From: Moritella viscosa
Lineage (GTDB): Bacteria > Pseudomonadota > Gammaproteobacteria > Enterobacterales > Moritellaceae
Length of the DNA stretch: 64,000 nucleotides
Direction of reading: 5' to 3'
Assembly (NCBI GenBank): GCA_000953735.1
Contig: LN554852.1
Location: forward strand, 2,491,846-2,555,845
Of this stretch, positions 38,914 through 44,831 are shown piece by piece. The notes under the pieces were generated by a model, which worked only from the letters and a program-made list of their open reading frames with translations, was not told the DNA's origin and did not search any database. A program made the translations under genes and the position numbers. The stretch's first letter is position 1. Each line of letters starts with the position of its first letter.

Positions 38914-40182
38914 TTAAATAGAACTAAGGTATTTTTGAACCAGACTTTTAAAGCGGTTTAAATCGACCTCATTAAAAACTGAAGGAGAAACAGCAACCCC
39001 AACCCCAATGTTGTCGCCACTGGGAACTAAAGTAACTATCAGACCATAATGTCCTTGTAATGGGAAATTGAAGCCCCCAGCTTTTATTGTCGTCGAGCCA
39101 TAAAACTCTAAATGTTCATCTTGGTTACGATTAAAATGACCAAAATTCGAGATATAAAGATTAGACTTAGAGCTGAGTAACCTGAAGGTATCCATCAACT
39201 GATTTGGTGTTGCATTAGCAAAGCTAGTTGAAAACCCCGCGTAAGATAACAAAGGTTTTAGAGGATTGATTTTAAAGGTGTCAATTTGCTGCTGAAACGC
39301 TGACGTAATATGTTCCATTCGACCTTCTTCCAGTTTGACTGGAATAGCGCTTACAAAATTTCCGAATAACTTGTCTTTATTTTTACGTGCATTTGCAGTA
39401 ATTGACATGGATATACGGCCTTGCAATGTATCTGTCTTCAATTGCATAACAGCTTTGGCAATGGCAGAAGAAATCAGTGTATTAAGGCTCATACCATCTG
39501 GTTTTTTAATCGTAGTGGTATCGATATCAAAGAAATCAAAAGTAACTGTATTATCTGTATTTTCGTGATAGAAAAGATCAACCTGATTAGCTTCAGATAA
39601 AAAGCTTTTAGATAGTGACCGGTGCTGCTCTAAGGCTTCATGAAACGCGGTATGATCACTAACTGATTGCTGTATAAACTGCTCATCAGACAAGCACCAC
39701 TCTGTGTCAGACAAATCCACGTCTATGTTGTTGTATGCGGTAATTAGCTGATTTTTAAATAAATAGCCAGATGGTGCATCACAAAATACATGGTTAATAA
39801 GCAAGCCCAAAACCGATTTATCACTACCACGTTCATCAAACTTGATTACGATAAAAGGGGCAAAGTTTGCCTCAGATACTAAATTTTGAAAATTATTGTT
39901 TAAAGTAGACTGTAGAGCTGCTACCGGACACTGTTCGGTTTCTTCTAGAATGAAGTTGTCTTTATACTCAAATGATTGATATATGTATTTATTATCTTGA
40001 TAGACTAGTTTTGTTTGCAGTTTCGGAATGGATTTATAAACTTTTTCAAGGGCGGCTTTTAAGCGTTTATTGTCCAAGCGCCCATCTAACTGCCAAAATT
40101 GAACAAAATATTGTGGATTATTATATTTAGCTATTTCAAATTTAACTTTATCGAGAAAGTTAACGGGAGCAATTGTCTTCAT
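38914..40182 (-). CDS. condensation-domain-like acyltransferase
   Basis: A 422-residue protein with the chloramphenicol-acetyltransferase-like fold of condensation domains and alcohol/wax acyltransferases. The active-site HxxxD is LLINHVFCDAPSGYL (around residue 130), and the second half contains SISMSITANARKNKDKLFGNFVS, the FGNxxS-like segment of the family. It would transfer an acyl group from a thioester to an alcohol or amine. There is no carrier domain or NRPS gene close by. The convergent iron-linked operon makes a siderophore- or lipid-modification role possible, but this is inference. Upstream (40271-40288) lies the palindrome TTGTAATTTTAGTTACAA. Confidence 0.7.
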   Translation of the reverse strand: MKTIAPVNFLDKVKFEIAKYNNPQYFVQFWQLDGRLDNKRLKAALEKVYKSIPKLQTKLVYQDNKYIYQSFEYKDNFILEETEQCPVAALQSTLNNNFQNLVSEANFAPFIVIKFDERGSDKSVLGLLINHVFCDAPSGYLFKNQLITAYNNIDVDLSDTEWCLSDEQFIQQSVSDHTAFHEALEQHRSLSKSFLSEANQVDLFYHENTDNTVTFDFFDIDTTTIKKPDGMSLNTLISSAIAKAVMQLKTDTLQGRISMSITANARKNKDKLFGNFVSAIPVKLEEGRMEHITSAFQQQIDTFKINPLKPLLSYAGFSTSFANATPNQLMDTFRLLSSKSNLYISNFGHFNRNQDEHLEFYGSTTIKAGGFNFPLQGHYGLIVTLVPSGDNIGVGVAVSPSVFNEVDLNRFKSLVQKYLSSI

Positions 40183-40589
40183 ATTACAACATCATAAATT
40201 ATAAGGATAATTTAAACACTTTAACTTTAATAATAAGGACTTTCAATATTAAAGAGGTCCAACTTGTGAGTTGTAATTTTAGTTACAATTGAATTAATTT
40301 TTGATAGTACCTATCACTAATGATCTCGTTAAATACAATGCTTGCTTACACTGAATAAGAGTATTCATATTTATAATTTATTAATTGCAGTATACCTTAC
40401 CCATATAGTCCTTTTGCTATTCTGAAAATAGCAAGGTTAAAGTTTATGATTGTTGACAAGGCCTTAACGACTTCCCAAGAATCGTTAAGGCCTCAAACCG
40501 TTAATTTAGCAATTTACAACCATATCGTGATGTGATTTTATCATATACCAGAGTCAACACAGCGTTGAATAAATATTCAAAAAATTAAG
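40183..40589. other. intergenic region with operator-like palindrome and terminator
   Basis: TTGTAATTTTAGTTACAA at 40271-40288 could be an operator for the minus-strand acyltransferase. GGCCTTAACGA (40460-40470) and TCGTTAAGGCC (40482-40492) form an 11-bp stem, a likely terminator of the prfH transcript, which ends at 40590. No gene. Confidence 0.55.
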
Positions 40590-41213
40590 TTATAACGTAA
40601 ACTTAGGACCATGAAATGTGTTGACTGGATTACCACGTTCGAGATCCCAGTGCTGCTGCCAACGCTGCTTTTCTTGTTTTGTCATATCATCTAATTTTTT
40701 AGATTCAATTTTTTGAAATAGTAATGCTTTGGCCAAACGCTTATTTGCATGCTGACTGCGTTCGCTCTCTATACGGACTGATAAGCCGGTAGCGATATGA
40801 GTTGCTCTAATTGCGGAATCTGTACAATTCACATGCTGTCCTCCTGCACCTGATGCTCTACAAGATTGAAACTTAATTGCTTGATCTAATTGTATTTCAT
40901 TTACTTCGAACATTTTACCACTAAAGAACCAGTTTTTACGTTTGTGCTTGGGGCGATAAGGACTTTGGCAAACCCATTGCATTACACCTTGCCAAGATAT
41001 TGCAATTGCTTTTGCTTGGGCTTGACTCTGATTATCGCCAAGTTGGATTAATACTGATTTATAGCAGCCTGATTTTGAGGTTTTAGTGATATCAATAACA
41101 TCAAATTTAAGTTTATCAATATCACATTGCTTTTCAATCGAACGAAAAGCCAGACCAACGGCTTTACTACATTCCAGTGGTCCTTGGCCTGCTGATAATT
41201 GCAATAATATCAT
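40590..41213 (-). CDS. prfH: peptide chain release factor H-like ribosome rescue factor
   Basis: A 207-residue PrfH (RF-H). The hydrolysis motif GGQ is in RASGAGGQHVNCTDSAIRATH, with the RF-type HIATGLSVRIESERSQHANKRLA after it. It lacks the codon-recognition domain 2 of RF1/RF2. PrfH was reported to release peptides from ribosomes damaged in the 16S decoding centre so that RtcB2 can reseal the RNA. The start is ATG 41213 (MILLQLSAGQGP): it overlaps the rtcB2 stop as ATGA, so translation is coupled. The upstream ATG at 41222 adds three residues and is less likely. Confidence 0.93.
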   Translation of the reverse strand: MILLQLSAGQGPLECSKAVGLAFRSIEKQCDIDKLKFDVIDITKTSKSGCYKSVLIQLGDNQSQAQAKAIAISWQGVMQWVCQSPYRPKHKRKNWFFSGKMFEVNEIQLDQAIKFQSCRASGAGGQHVNCTDSAIRATHIATGLSVRIESERSQHANKRLAKALLFQKIESKKLDDMTKQEKQRWQQHWDLERGNPVNTFHGPKFTL

Positions 41214-42376
41214 GATGAACAATCTCCATTTGTTTTGAAAGTGAGTACTGGGCGTAGTTTTGCAATTATCTTAACTAATCCAGCATCGACCATGTCTCCG
41301 ACAATGCTGGCACAATCCTTATATGCCTGTGGTGCTTCATCATAAAGTAATGTTTTATTGCCACAAATAACATGACTGCCTAGTGCCGTTCTAATCATAT
41401 CATTACGCTTGTATTTATGGCTTAAACGTCCTTGGCATTCACCACGCTTCCATTTTCTTCCTGCACCATGTGCTAATGAAAACAAGCTTAAGTTTGATAT
41501 ATCAATATTTGATAAAAGTGGCTTTACAAGGTAAGTGTAGTCGCTCCGGGAACCTGGTATTACCACGCAGCCTTGATCGCTCGGGGTGGCACCTTTACGA
41601 TGTAACCAGCCCGATTTCCCGTTGATATTTTTGGGTGACACCAAATTATGGTTTATATCAAGGATACAATGACCTTGAGATTTAATTGCTGTTAAGAAGC
41701 GTTGTGCAATGAGCTCTCGATTAAGTTCTGCCCAGCGTACAGCTTCATTGTGCAGTGATAAATAATGCTCGAAATCAGGACCGTGTGTTACAAGACCATC
41801 GTGATTACACTGTGTTATATGTTCAACTAATATAGATTGACCAAACCCCCTAGAACCTGAATGAACAAGTAGCTGTAAGTGCCGCTTGTCTAATCCCAGA
41901 GTATCGAATATTTGTTGATCATAAATGTCTTCAATAGCCTGAAATTCAGCAAAATGATTACCTCCTCCAATGGTTCCAAGGGCATAGTCAAAGTTTGATG
42001 TCTTAATTGATTTGTCATTTTTCCTGGCTTCAATCGTGGAAGACCAACTTTTGTCTAGTGGCAATTCAATGTTGGCAAACCGCTTTGATAGTTTTGGTAA
42101 GTTTATTTTTGATACTTTTGCTGACGTTTGCCAAAGTGACATGCCACAGCCTATATCATTACCTACTAATGCGGGATAAATTTTGTTTTGAGTGTAAAAG
42201 GCGGCTCCAATTGGGTAACCTCTACCTGGGTGTAAATCAGGCATACCTGCAGATTGAAGCATGCCCGGTAAAGTTGATGTTTTAACAAGCTGTTCGATTG
42301 CTAGACCTTCTACCCAAGTGTTTTTGGATGCAATAAGGCTTATATTGTCAGTGATTTTTTGGACTGATTTGCCCAT
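41210..42376 (-). CDS. rtcB: RtcB2-type RNA ligase
   Basis: A 388-residue RtcB-family RNA ligase of the shorter RtcB2 class paired with PrfH. Visible active-site parts: NDIGCGMSLW (metal Cys), GTIGGGNHFAEFQ (metal His), VHSGSRGFG, LDINHNLVSP, HRKGATPSDQGCVVIPGSRSDYTYLV and the C-terminal SLAHGAGRKWKRGE with the guanylylated His. It joins 2',3'-cyclic phosphate and 5'-OH ends, here presumably cleaved 16S rRNA. The start ATG 42376 follows AAGGAATTGGTATT, and that Shine-Dalgarno lies inside a hairpin (see the attenuator entry). Confidence 0.94.
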   Translation of the reverse strand: MGKSVQKITDNISLIASKNTWVEGLAIEQLVKTSTLPGMLQSAGMPDLHPGRGYPIGAAFYTQNKIYPALVGNDIGCGMSLWQTSAKVSKINLPKLSKRFANIELPLDKSWSSTIEARKNDKSIKTSNFDYALGTIGGGNHFAEFQAIEDIYDQQIFDTLGLDKRHLQLLVHSGSRGFGQSILVEHITQCNHDGLVTHGPDFEHYLSLHNEAVRWAELNRELIAQRFLTAIKSQGHCILDINHNLVSPKNINGKSGWLHRKGATPSDQGCVVIPGSRSDYTYLVKPLLSNIDISNLSLFSLAHGAGRKWKRGECQGRLSHKYKRNDMIRTALGSHVICGNKTLLYDEAPQAYKDCASIVGDMVDAGLVKIIAKLRPVLTFKTNGDCSS

Positions 42377-42524
42377 AATACCAATTCCTTTAAATAGGAT
42401 TTAAACGTAAAACGAATTGGCAGGTCTGGTGTTTTTGGTGTGAACTGAAAAACAGATATTAGGTATTAGACTTTCTTAATGTAATAAAAATAGCTAAGTA
42501 AACCCGTTATCGGATAAGACCTGC
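42374..42524 (-). promoter_or_regulatory. candidate translational attenuator of rtcB2-prfH
   Basis: In mRNA sense, CCAATTC (plus-strand 42414-42420) pairs with GAATTGG (42381-42387), with a second internal stem TTTAAA/TTTAAA (42400-42405, 42389-42394). This folds away the rtcB2 Shine-Dalgarno AAGGA (42386-42390). Immediately upstream AGACCTGC (42420-42427) is exactly complementary to GCAGGTCT inside the 13-codon leader ORF (42517-42524), and extends by two more pairs into the anti-Shine-Dalgarno arm after one mismatch. The two pairings share the base at 42420 and so compete at the edge. Ribosome position on the leader could thus decide whether the rtcB2 site is open. Pairings are seen; the mechanism is inference. 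Confidence 0.6.
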
Positions 42525-42548
42525 AAAGGATGTCGATGTAATTGTCAT
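42507..42548 (-). CDS. 13-residue leader peptide upstream of rtcB2
   Basis: MTITSTSFAGLIR followed by TAA. The ATG (42546-42548) has a strong AAAGGAGAAATATT site in front, better than that of rtcB2 itself, which is strong evidence that it is translated. It lies 130 nt upstream of rtcB2 on the same strand. Codons 9-12 contain GCAGGTCT, the arm that pairs with the region next to the rtcB2 Shine-Dalgarno blocker. No such peptide is known to me for this operon. A TTGACA element occurs at 42644-42649 on the same strand as a possible -35 for the transcript. Confidence 0.62.
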   Translation of the reverse strand: MTITSTSFAGLIR

Positions 42549-42839
42549 AATATTTCTCCTTTACAGTTGAGCGGTGAATTTAAATAGATAGAATTAAACG
42601 CGGTGATAATAATCGGTTTACAGTGATAAAGCAATACTATTATTGTCAATTAAATATATACAACAAACACTTACAAAACCATTATTGTTCTTTAATTATA
42701 AAATAATTAAAATGCATGCAGTTAATAGTAAGTGTGCATAGTGGAATAACGGCACAATCTATTGTTGAAATCTTTAACCTACCGAGTAAACCGAGATAAT
42801 TATTTCGGTTATGCTATTGAAATATAAAAAGAGTTAATC

Positions 42840-44831
42840 ATGTTGAAAAAAATATTCGTTGCTGTTTGTACCGCATCACTAGTTGCTTGCGGCGGTAGCG
42901 GAGGTGGAGACAGCCGTACTGCACCTACGAAGAGTGCATCAAATCCTGAAGTAATAAACGTATCATTCAAAAATTTAGACGGGGATGTGATTGAACTTGG
43001 TGATGAATTGAAGGGCTCATACACTTTTATTTCTGCAAGTATCCCAACTGCAAAAGATGCATCAGATATATTTTGGGAAATAGGAGGTAACTTAGTTCAT
43101 AAAGGTAGTCGCTATCGTATCCCAATGGACAATAATTATGTCGGACTTGAAATACATTTTTGTGTTAATCCGATTAACCGAGGGGATCGTTTAGAAGGAA
43201 ATAAAACGTGTTCGACACCACTACTTATCGATAGTAAATATGTACCTGCTACGCCTAAAGTATCAATTCCTAATGCCGCAACCAATAATATTGTTGGTTC
43301 TCCTTTAAATGTTTGGGTATTTGATGACAGTGATTATTCTACTACCATTCAGTGGTACCGAAATAGTCAACCAATCTTAGGTATAACTCAAGACCAATAT
43401 CAATTAACCAGTGATGATGAAGGCCAGAAAGTTTCAGTTTGTGTATTCGATAAGAAAACAAAAATTAAATTAGCTTGCTCAGGTAAAACCAACGCAATTC
43501 AACCACAGCAGGGTGAGCGACCAGACGTTGATTTGACGCCGCTACCTCGCAATATTGAGATAGGTCAAAGCCTATATCTAACTTACAATTTCTCAGACCG
43601 TGATAGCGATAAAGAAGATACTAGTAAAACATCTTTTAACTGGTATAAAAATGGAACGAGAGTTGCTTCGACACGATCACTGCAGCTCAAAGATAGTATG
43701 GTAGGGGCTAAGTTAAAAGGCTGTGTGACAGCTTATGCTCAAACAGGTTTGCCTAAAAACAGTGTCGTAACTTGTACTCCAGAAGAAACCGTCTGGGCTG
43801 TTAAAGATTCAAAGCCACGCGCAATGAATATTAGGATACAGGGGGTTCGTTTTGGTGAGCATACCTTATCCGGCCAATATAAATACTTTGATTTAAACAA
43901 CGATCACCAAACAAGTAGTCTATTTGAATGGAGTGTGATTAAAAATAACATTGATACTGTTGTTAGCCGAGCTCAAAATTACACGCTACAAATTAGCGAC
44001 GAAGGTAAAGGTAATCAAATTCGATTCTGTGTTACCCCCGTGAATGCAAAAGAGAAAGGCAGTATAGAATGTGTAACCGAAGACATTGCATGGTTTGAAG
44101 GACACGGTGAATTTAAAGAAGGTGGTGTGATTACACCCTACTTAGCAGGTTATCCAGATTTTAAACTGTCTTATTGGAAGTCAGCTTCTAAAATGCTAAC
44201 GACAGCAATGGCGTTAGATTTTACAGATAATAAAGTAAAACCACTAGCTGTCGATACTGCGGACACTAGCTTTAGTAATCTATATCCTATATCGCTATGT
44301 GTGTCAGTCGACGATGACATTCAAAATGATGATGATATTTGTCGAGAAATGAAAGCGAACAACAAACTAAAGGGCGGAATGATTTTTGACTTTAATGATC
44401 ATAGCCGCATAGCAATGAACTATAAACGTGAAGTAAATGTAATTGTAGCAGGGAATAAATATCGTATTAGACGTCCATATACATGGGCAGAATTTAAAGA
44501 ACTAAATTTAGATAAAGATCCTGGATTTCTTTCTGCCGAGCCAAGCATCATTCGAGAAGGGGGCAATATAGTAAAGGGGCTTAAAATGACACCGAAACAA
44601 GCCAATGATTTTTGTTTACGCACCTATGGTGCACCAGGGGTTATTAGCTCTGCAATTAATTTTAGTGACGGTGTTATTCCGTCAGGTAAGCACCAATGGC
44701 CTATCTACCTTTCGACACAAGCGTATGTTACAAAAGAGCCAAATGGGATGTTTGTTATTAATTCTAATAAGTACATACCCGCAGACATGAATGGTAAATA
44801 TGCCTTTGCGTGTTTGGCTGTCGCACCGTAG
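42840..44831 (+). CDS. large lipoprotein with Ig-like repeats, hypothetical
   Basis: A 663-residue lipoprotein (MLKKIFVAVCTASLVACGG; Cys17). The mature part contains about four imperfect domains of ~90-100 residues. Each has a W-(Y/K)-x-N motif (WYRNSQPI, WYKNGTRV, WEIGG, WSVIKNN), a later SDDEGQKVSVCV/SDEGKGNQIRFCV motif and a C-terminal Cys pair, the pattern of bacterial Ig-like domains with disulfides. The last ~120 residues (MTPKQANDFCLRTYGAPGVI) look like a separate cap. It is probably surface exposed; the binding partner is unknown. The ATG is preceded by AGAGTTAATC. Confidence 0.72.
   Translation: MLKKIFVAVCTASLVACGGSGGGDSRTAPTKSASNPEVINVSFKNLDGDVIELGDELKGSYTFISASIPTAKDASDIFWEIGGNLVHKGSRYRIPMDNNYVGLEIHFCVNPINRGDRLEGNKTCSTPLLIDSKYVPATPKVSIPNAATNNIVGSPLNVWVFDDSDYSTTIQWYRNSQPILGITQDQYQLTSDDEGQKVSVCVFDKKTKIKLACSGKTNAIQPQQGERPDVDLTPLPRNIEIGQSLYLTYNFSDRDSDKEDTSKTSFNWYKNGTRVASTRSLQLKDSMVGAKLKGCVTAYAQTGLPKNSVVTCTPEETVWAVKDSKPRAMNIRIQGVRFGEHTLSGQYKYFDLNNDHQTSSLFEWSVIKNNIDTVVSRAQNYTLQISDEGKGNQIRFCVTPVNAKEKGSIECVTEDIAWFEGHGEFKEGGVITPYLAGYPDFKLSYWKSASKMLTTAMALDFTDNKVKPLAVDTADTSFSNLYPISLCVSVDDDIQNDDDICREMKANNKLKGGMIFDFNDHSRIAMNYKREVNVIVAGNKYRIRRPYTWAEFKELNLDKDPGFLSAEPSIIREGGNIVKGLKMTPKQANDFCLRTYGAPGVISSAINFSDGVIPSGKHQWPIYLSTQAYVTKEPNGMFVINSNKYIPADMNGKYAFACLAVAP

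Follow-up and report, generated by a model that had tools for sequence, protein, structure and literature searches.

Competing RNA pairings in a conserved leader upstream of the ribosome-repair genes rtcB2-prfH: a putative three-state switch

The leader locus

We analyzed a stretch of 64,000 nucleotides (nt) from Moritella viscosa (contig LN554852.1; hereafter the window, whose positions are used throughout), in which a short leader open reading frame (ORF) precedes the genes rtcB2 and prfH on the minus strand. A first-pass annotation had described this region as a leader-controlled translational attenuator. The features concerned, all on the minus strand, are:

42507..42548, minus: leader ORF MTITSTSFAGLIR, 13 codons plus TAA (ATG at 42548, stop at 42509-42507)
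42560-42556, minus: leader Shine-Dalgarno sequence AGGAG, seven bases before the leader ATG
42557..42566, minus: segment Z, CTGTAAAGGA, the leader ribosome site, pairs with TCCTTTGCAG
42521..42530, minus: partner of Z, TCCTTTGCAG, overlaps arm A by GCAG, i.e. half of arm A
42517..42524, minus: arm A, GCAGGTCT, inside leader codons 9-12
42420..42427, minus: arm B, AGACCTGC, exact complement of arm A
42414..42422, minus: arm C, TGCCAATTC; TGC 42422-42420 is common to arms B and C
42379..42387, minus: arm D, GAATTGGTA, overlaps the rtcB2 Shine-Dalgarno sequence
42386..42390, minus: rtcB2 Shine-Dalgarno sequence AAGGA
41210..42376, minus: rtcB2, RNA ligase of the RtcB family (curated models PRK09588/TIGR03073), ATG at 42376
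40590..41222, minus: prfH, peptide chain release factor H (TIGR03072), overlaps rtcB2; its listed TTG start is mechanical

The annotated 13-codon ORF is present with its Shine-Dalgarno sequence, and 130 nt separate its stop from the rtcB2 ATG. The pairing of codons 9-12 with 42420-42427 (A:B) is exact, as had been claimed. CCAATTC/GAATTGG and TTTAAA/TTTAAA also occur as annotated, but GAATTGG, said to contain the rtcB2 Shine-Dalgarno sequence, holds only the last two bases of AAGGA. The best duplex at the rtcB2 start is the longer TGCCAATTC/GAATTGGTA (C:D), computed on the sister locus L002, which has identical bases there and the same leader peptide, with a TAG stop where the window has TAA. 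Since this duplex reaches beyond CCAATTC/GAATTGG, it shares TGC 42422-42420 with A:B. Both helices are adjacent and present in the best fold of the window region. A third pairing, in which Z ties up the arm A region with the leader's own ribosome site, was absent from the first-pass annotation. Taken by itself, the folding energy of the region does not stand out (z -1.34), and the case for an element rests on comparative evidence. This genome has one rtcB2 of this type, which is present in 2 of 11 genomes of the genus.

Conservation of the leader

Loci from a contig scan (the best 80 of 557 candidates), genome searches, and plasmid and E. coli records gave 151 in total; these are not fully independent, L083 and L103 being the same place. 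In 136 of them, rtcB2 is preceded within 300 nt by a leader of 11-24 codons that has a Shine-Dalgarno sequence of some kind. Under a stricter rule (ATG ORF of 12-16 codons, AGGAG or GGAGG, at most 300 nt upstream) it was found at 126 of 150 rtcB2 loci versus 5 of 564 controls, which were upstream regions of other open frames of at least 150 codons in the window and the same loci. Judged by this comparison and by the covariation described below, the leader and its pairings upstream of rtcB2 are real and not due to chance. The 15 loci without a leader by the wider rule include L076, L114 and L116, where the leader falls outside the limits, and L107, at a contig end. No convincing leader was found upstream of rtcB2 in L085, L086, L088, L093, L095, L098, L149 and L150; candidate leader ORFs lie further upstream in L106, L108 and L151. 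L061 passed the rule with a wrong ORF and has a better one at -394.

Hosts include Pseudoalteromonas, Colwellia, Vibrio, Marinomonas, Pseudomonas, Providencia, Proteus and E. coli. E. coli carries the element (MTNPLSMTLCRPFQD, L092), and a 147-base query of that region matched 5343 of 5426 E. coli genomes. Among the 73 distinct loci defined below, leaders of 13 codons occur in 42, of 15 in 16, of 14 in 12, of 16 in two and of 12 in one. The C-terminal residues are FAGLIR in marine leaders and LCRSRLA, LCRPFQD or similar in leaders of Pseudomonas and Enterobacteriaceae. The arm A bases, TTTGCAGG or near, are thus read in three frames (FAGL, LCRS and LQV in 36, 36 and 1 of the 73), which argues that the RNA is conserved and not the peptide.

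A covariance model (R1) built from part of the loci gave a single strong match in this genome (E 2.3e-12; next 5.8), located upstream of rtcB2. Among 246 genomes of Enterobacteriaceae it matched 24, some of which had supplied rows of the model, always within 300 nt of an rtcB2. The gene occurs in 32 of the 246, so that 8 were missed; none of the 214 genomes without rtcB2 had a match at E 0.001. Of 87 loci searched, from the 122 outside the model, 61 matched once each and 26 were missed, L141 among them. No Rfam family matched at its gathering score: window positions 40000-43500 (E up to 1) gave one weak match elsewhere, far below that score, and L090, L092, L096 and L099 gave none.

Several loci stand apart. 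A conjugative IncC plasmid of Klebsiella (NZ_CP086440.1; L090, 1335-3212) carries a marine-type leader, MQNTSTSFAGLVR, and rtcB2-prfH just upstream of sul1; its RtcB2 is 69% identical to that of the window. L096 and L097 (alphaproteobacterial plasmids), L109, L148, L152, L153 and L154 have their own 13-15-codon leaders, e.g. MTTISARPERVSA, in which the GCAGG arm of the other loci was not found; possibly they follow the same idea with other pairings. In L096 (Shinella plasmid, 1-894) rtcB2-prfH is immediately preceded by a further gene of the RtcB family. L089, L112, L116, L061 and L122 have additional sequence, tens to about 200 nt long, located either between the arms or downstream of arm C before the rtcB2 start; in some cases it resembles dispersed repeats.

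Covariation and competition of the pairings

Motif anchors placed the arms in 126 of the 136 leader loci; arm A was wanting in L061, L070, L087, L094, L096, L097, L109, L152 and L153, and arm B in L148. Removal of L154 left 125 rows, 73 of them distinct. Arm D was set at a default position in L032, L042, L069, L099, L100, L110 and L124, which lack the motif, and arms were placed by hand in L032, L121 and L111.

The first-pass annotation had staked its proposal on conservation in related rtcB2-prfH loci, and the leader and both pairings are indeed conserved. Over seven pairs of A:B, 480 of 511 cells are paired (440 in shuffles), and 55 cells show two-sided changes compared with 7.9 +/- 2.5 in shuffles; 0 of 2000 shuffles reached either value. 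With eight pairs there are 69 two-sided changes versus 13-34 in slid registers. The forms include GCAGGTC:GACCTGC, GCAGACC:CGTCTGC, GCGGACA:TGTCCGC and GCAGATC:GATCTGC. For C:D, 506 of 657 cells are paired (477 shuffled, 0 of 2000 reaching) with 25 two-sided changes (13.1 shuffled, 2 of 2000 reaching).

An anchor-free MAFFT alignment of 30 sequences (A1) agreed. RNAalifold predicted A:B as its only pairing, with 94.3% paired and 21 two-sided cells (6.7 shuffled); the values for C:D were 91.1% and 8 (2.3 shuffled). In the RtcB2 protein tree (73 sequences), at least five changes fall on position 5 of arm A and at least three on position 7. In independent pairs the arm B partner followed in 3.4 of 4 and 3.0 of 3, respectively, and never the opposite way. 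Positions 8 and 9 were mixed, with too few pairs for any test to reach 0.05.

The base 5' of arm A (42525) never pairs with the opposite arm C base (42419) in any of the 73 loci, as if A:B must stop exactly there.

By comparison of sequences, A:B shares bases with the helix that is predicted to hide the rtcB2 start site. The best duplex formed by the leader 3' half and the spacer was computed separately from the best one at the rtcB2 start; they shared exactly three bases in 39 of the 73 loci and at least two in 61; in 9 they shared none. Some lineages have a Shine-Dalgarno region complementary to arm B or to an overlapping strand: L042 (TGCAGGT), L070 (GGTAGGT), L099 (GCAGG), L072, L080 and L081 (CAGGA), and likewise L032, with CCTTTCAA:TTGAAAGG versus AGGTCTT:AAGACCT.

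Folding with a ribosome on the leader

We modeled the ribosome as blocked bases in ViennaRNA and took the cost of opening the rtcB2 Shine-Dalgarno sequence as the measure. The mean cost over the 73 loci was 4.27 kcal/mol for the bare RNA, 3.39 with the ribosome at the leader start and 4.43 at the stop. Blocking the leader ribosome site alone gave 3.53 kcal/mol, and the start codon with the next bases alone 4.23. Shorter flanks yielded 4.24 (bare), 3.26 (start) and 4.46 kcal/mol (stop); compared with the stop, a ribosome at the start made opening easier by over 0.5 in 44 of the 73 loci and harder in 9, and the p values of this run count related loci as independent and so overstate certainty. 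Complementing arm A abolished the gain at the start in the same run (4.64 and 4.47 kcal/mol). In the window the cost was 7.3 kcal/mol for the bare RNA, 4.0-4.4 with the ribosome at codons 1-4 and 7.1-7.5 at codons 5-13. These calculations support the view that A:B eases opening of the rtcB2 site and that a ribosome over arm A shuts it, in agreement with the annotated role of the leader-reading ribosome. Bare RNA is predicted to be shut because Z pairs with arm A.

Arm A starts 22-33 nt past the ATG and 12-21 nt before the leader stop in the 125 loci. With the footprint sizes that we take for a ribosome, arm A would thus lie beyond an initiating ribosome and under a terminating one.

Proposed mechanism and alternatives

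We propose that the leader is a three-state, translational RNA switch on rtcB2-prfH, opened by a ribosome that starts the leader and becomes stuck; from the comparative and modeling results we put its probability at roughly 65%. In the bare RNA, Z would pair with arm A and the rtcB2 site would be shut. With a ribosome held at codons 1-4 of the leader, Z would be covered and arm A left free, so that A:B could form and the rtcB2 site would open more easily. Further along the leader the ribosome would cover arm A and the site would be shut again. The trigger would be the stuck ribosome and not the mere absence of leader reading. The modeled folding agrees still better with the idea that the signal would be the damaged ribosome itself than did the two-state scheme of the first-pass annotation, whose attenuator architecture with competing pairings is otherwise borne out by comparison and folding.

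Several observations weigh against this proposal. Slid registers of C:D had far fewer paired cells (88-296), yet their two-sided counts (16-30) were not clearly lower than the 25 found, so that support for C:D comes mainly from conserved pairing. In A1, further pair types in A:B (6 versus 8.3 shuffled), C:D pairs changed on both sides (2 versus 1.4; 240 of 500 shuffles) and further pair types in C:D (184 of 500 shuffles) did not favor pairing. Several loci, including L141 and L090, showed little or no step in opening cost. Further such points belong to the first two alternatives below and bear on the homologous leader PA5471.1 of armZ in Pseudomonas aeruginosa; published statements are cited here and below from the available portions of the papers.

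A possible, though unlikely, alternative is transcription attenuation, in which full reading of the leader lets a terminator act, either intrinsic or through Rho on untranslated rtcB2. It is compatible with the pairings found, and it is the published model for armZ, where segments 3:4 are the terminator (PMC13041342) and armZ mRNA was changed (PMC13041342, PMC12057347). Terminator-like sites were not found at 42340-42840 of the window or between leader and rtcB2 in L141, and occurred in 5 of 73 regions versus 7 of 73 in one shuffle set. The window C:D helix abuts the rtcB2 start codon without a T run.

Decidedly unlikely in our view is a two-state switch, in which any loss of leader reading, even for want of a ribosome, opens rtcB2. 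Among the rows listed, A:B is usually the stronger computed duplex, and deletion of positions 1-226, leader included, raises ArmZ (PMC13041342). That deletion also takes much of the downstream region, however, and the Q3 stop mutant still allows a ribosome on the leader start. The claim of the first-pass annotation that loss of leader translation as such opens the site does not hold in the model, where bare RNA stays nearly as costly to open as RNA with a ribosome at the stop.

The opposite direction, in which leader reading opens rtcB2 by breaking an A:B helix that otherwise steadies C:D through stacking, would suit the coexistence of the adjacent helices in the window's best fold. It is very improbable given that the two share bases, that covering arm A raises the predicted opening cost and that an early leader stop raises ArmZ (PMC13041342). 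Arrest dependent on the nascent peptide has a negligible chance of being correct, the near-constant leader length (13 codons in 42 of 73) notwithstanding, as three different reading frames run through the conserved bases.

The three-state switch predicts that loss of the leader start codon leaves the operon shut and that a ribosome held at the start opens it. Judged by its distribution, the leader appears to be a general control of the ribosome-repair genes rtcB2-prfH. For a wider proposal we consider the odds about even: that one ancestral three-state switch governs rtcB2-prfH in much of Gammaproteobacteria and responds only to a ribosome that has started the leader but cannot get past about codon 4, so that a ribosome cut in its decoding centre would open translation of the enzymes that repair it, the control of the MexXY pump in P. 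aeruginosa being a later use of this sensor. This is a possible answer to how a cell switches on the repair of its own damaged ribosomes.

Comparison with known systems

The first-pass annotation knew of no such description for RtcB2-PrfH, but one exists in the same protein family. PA5471 (ArmZ) of P. aeruginosa is a member of PRK09588 and shares a transcript with PA5470, a predicted release factor; its control lies with the 13-residue leader PA5471.1, about 250 bp upstream, which monitors ribosome disruption (PMC3516279). The same paper reports that 4-azaleucine, a compound that disturbs translation, induces ykfJ, the relative in K-12 (PMC3516279). The window element is homologous to the PA5471.1 attenuator: in both, a leader of about 13 codons precedes an RtcB-family gene and then prfH, and the downstream gene falls in PRK09588 in the window, L141 and ArmZ. 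L141 (MIQFSTLCRLRLA) agrees with the published facts on PA5471.1, and we infer that L141 is P. aeruginosa. In the PA5471.1-armZ system the product lifts the repression of mexXY by MexZ.

ArmZ increases with a stop at leader codon 3, as with the 1-226 deletion, and leader codons 3 and 4 are important in a tRNA-maturation mutant (PMC13041342). Both observations, on the codon-3 stop and on codons 3 and 4, agree with a switch that ribosomes at codons 1-4 would open. A 7-nt leader deletion makes armZ constitutive (PMC12057347). Published accounts treat the system as transcription attenuation that controls the MexXY pump (PMC13041342, PMC12057347), whereas PMC3884212 describes the control as translational. 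The spacer of L141 is longer, and folding predicts no shift there; in the window the spacer is short, C:D covers the Shine-Dalgarno sequence and no terminator-like site was found. Induction by a ribosome stalled on the leader agrees with the modeled folding for the window but not for L141. As the terminator of the published model was found between leader and gene in neither, a terminator may not define the family of PA5471.1-type leaders.

The RtcB2-PrfH operon of E. coli, the same gene pair as in the window, protects from colicin E3 (PMC9223846). A term search of the available portions of PMC9223846 and PMC1586002 did not return the word 'leader'. In searches of the open-licence PubMed Central literature we found neither a link of such a leader to RtcB2-PrfH outside P. 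aeruginosa nor a description of these conserved pairings. As far as seen, the breadth across gammaproteobacteria, the covarying pairings and the signs of translational rather than terminator control are new, and they join two literatures, on RtcB2-PrfH repair and on the PA5471.1 leader, that the work examined had not linked.

In translational attenuators of the erm/cat type, a short leader ORF, alternative pairings and a hidden start site keep the bare RNA shut until a stalled ribosome opens it. The window element shares these traits: its leader pairs alternatively with downstream segments, the rtcB2 start site is hidden by an alternative pairing in computed structures, and the bare RNA is predicted to be shut. 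The difference lies in the stall, which in erm/cat-type systems is specific to drug and peptide; here the three frames over arm A speak against a conserved stalling peptide, and the predicted stall falls within the first four codons.
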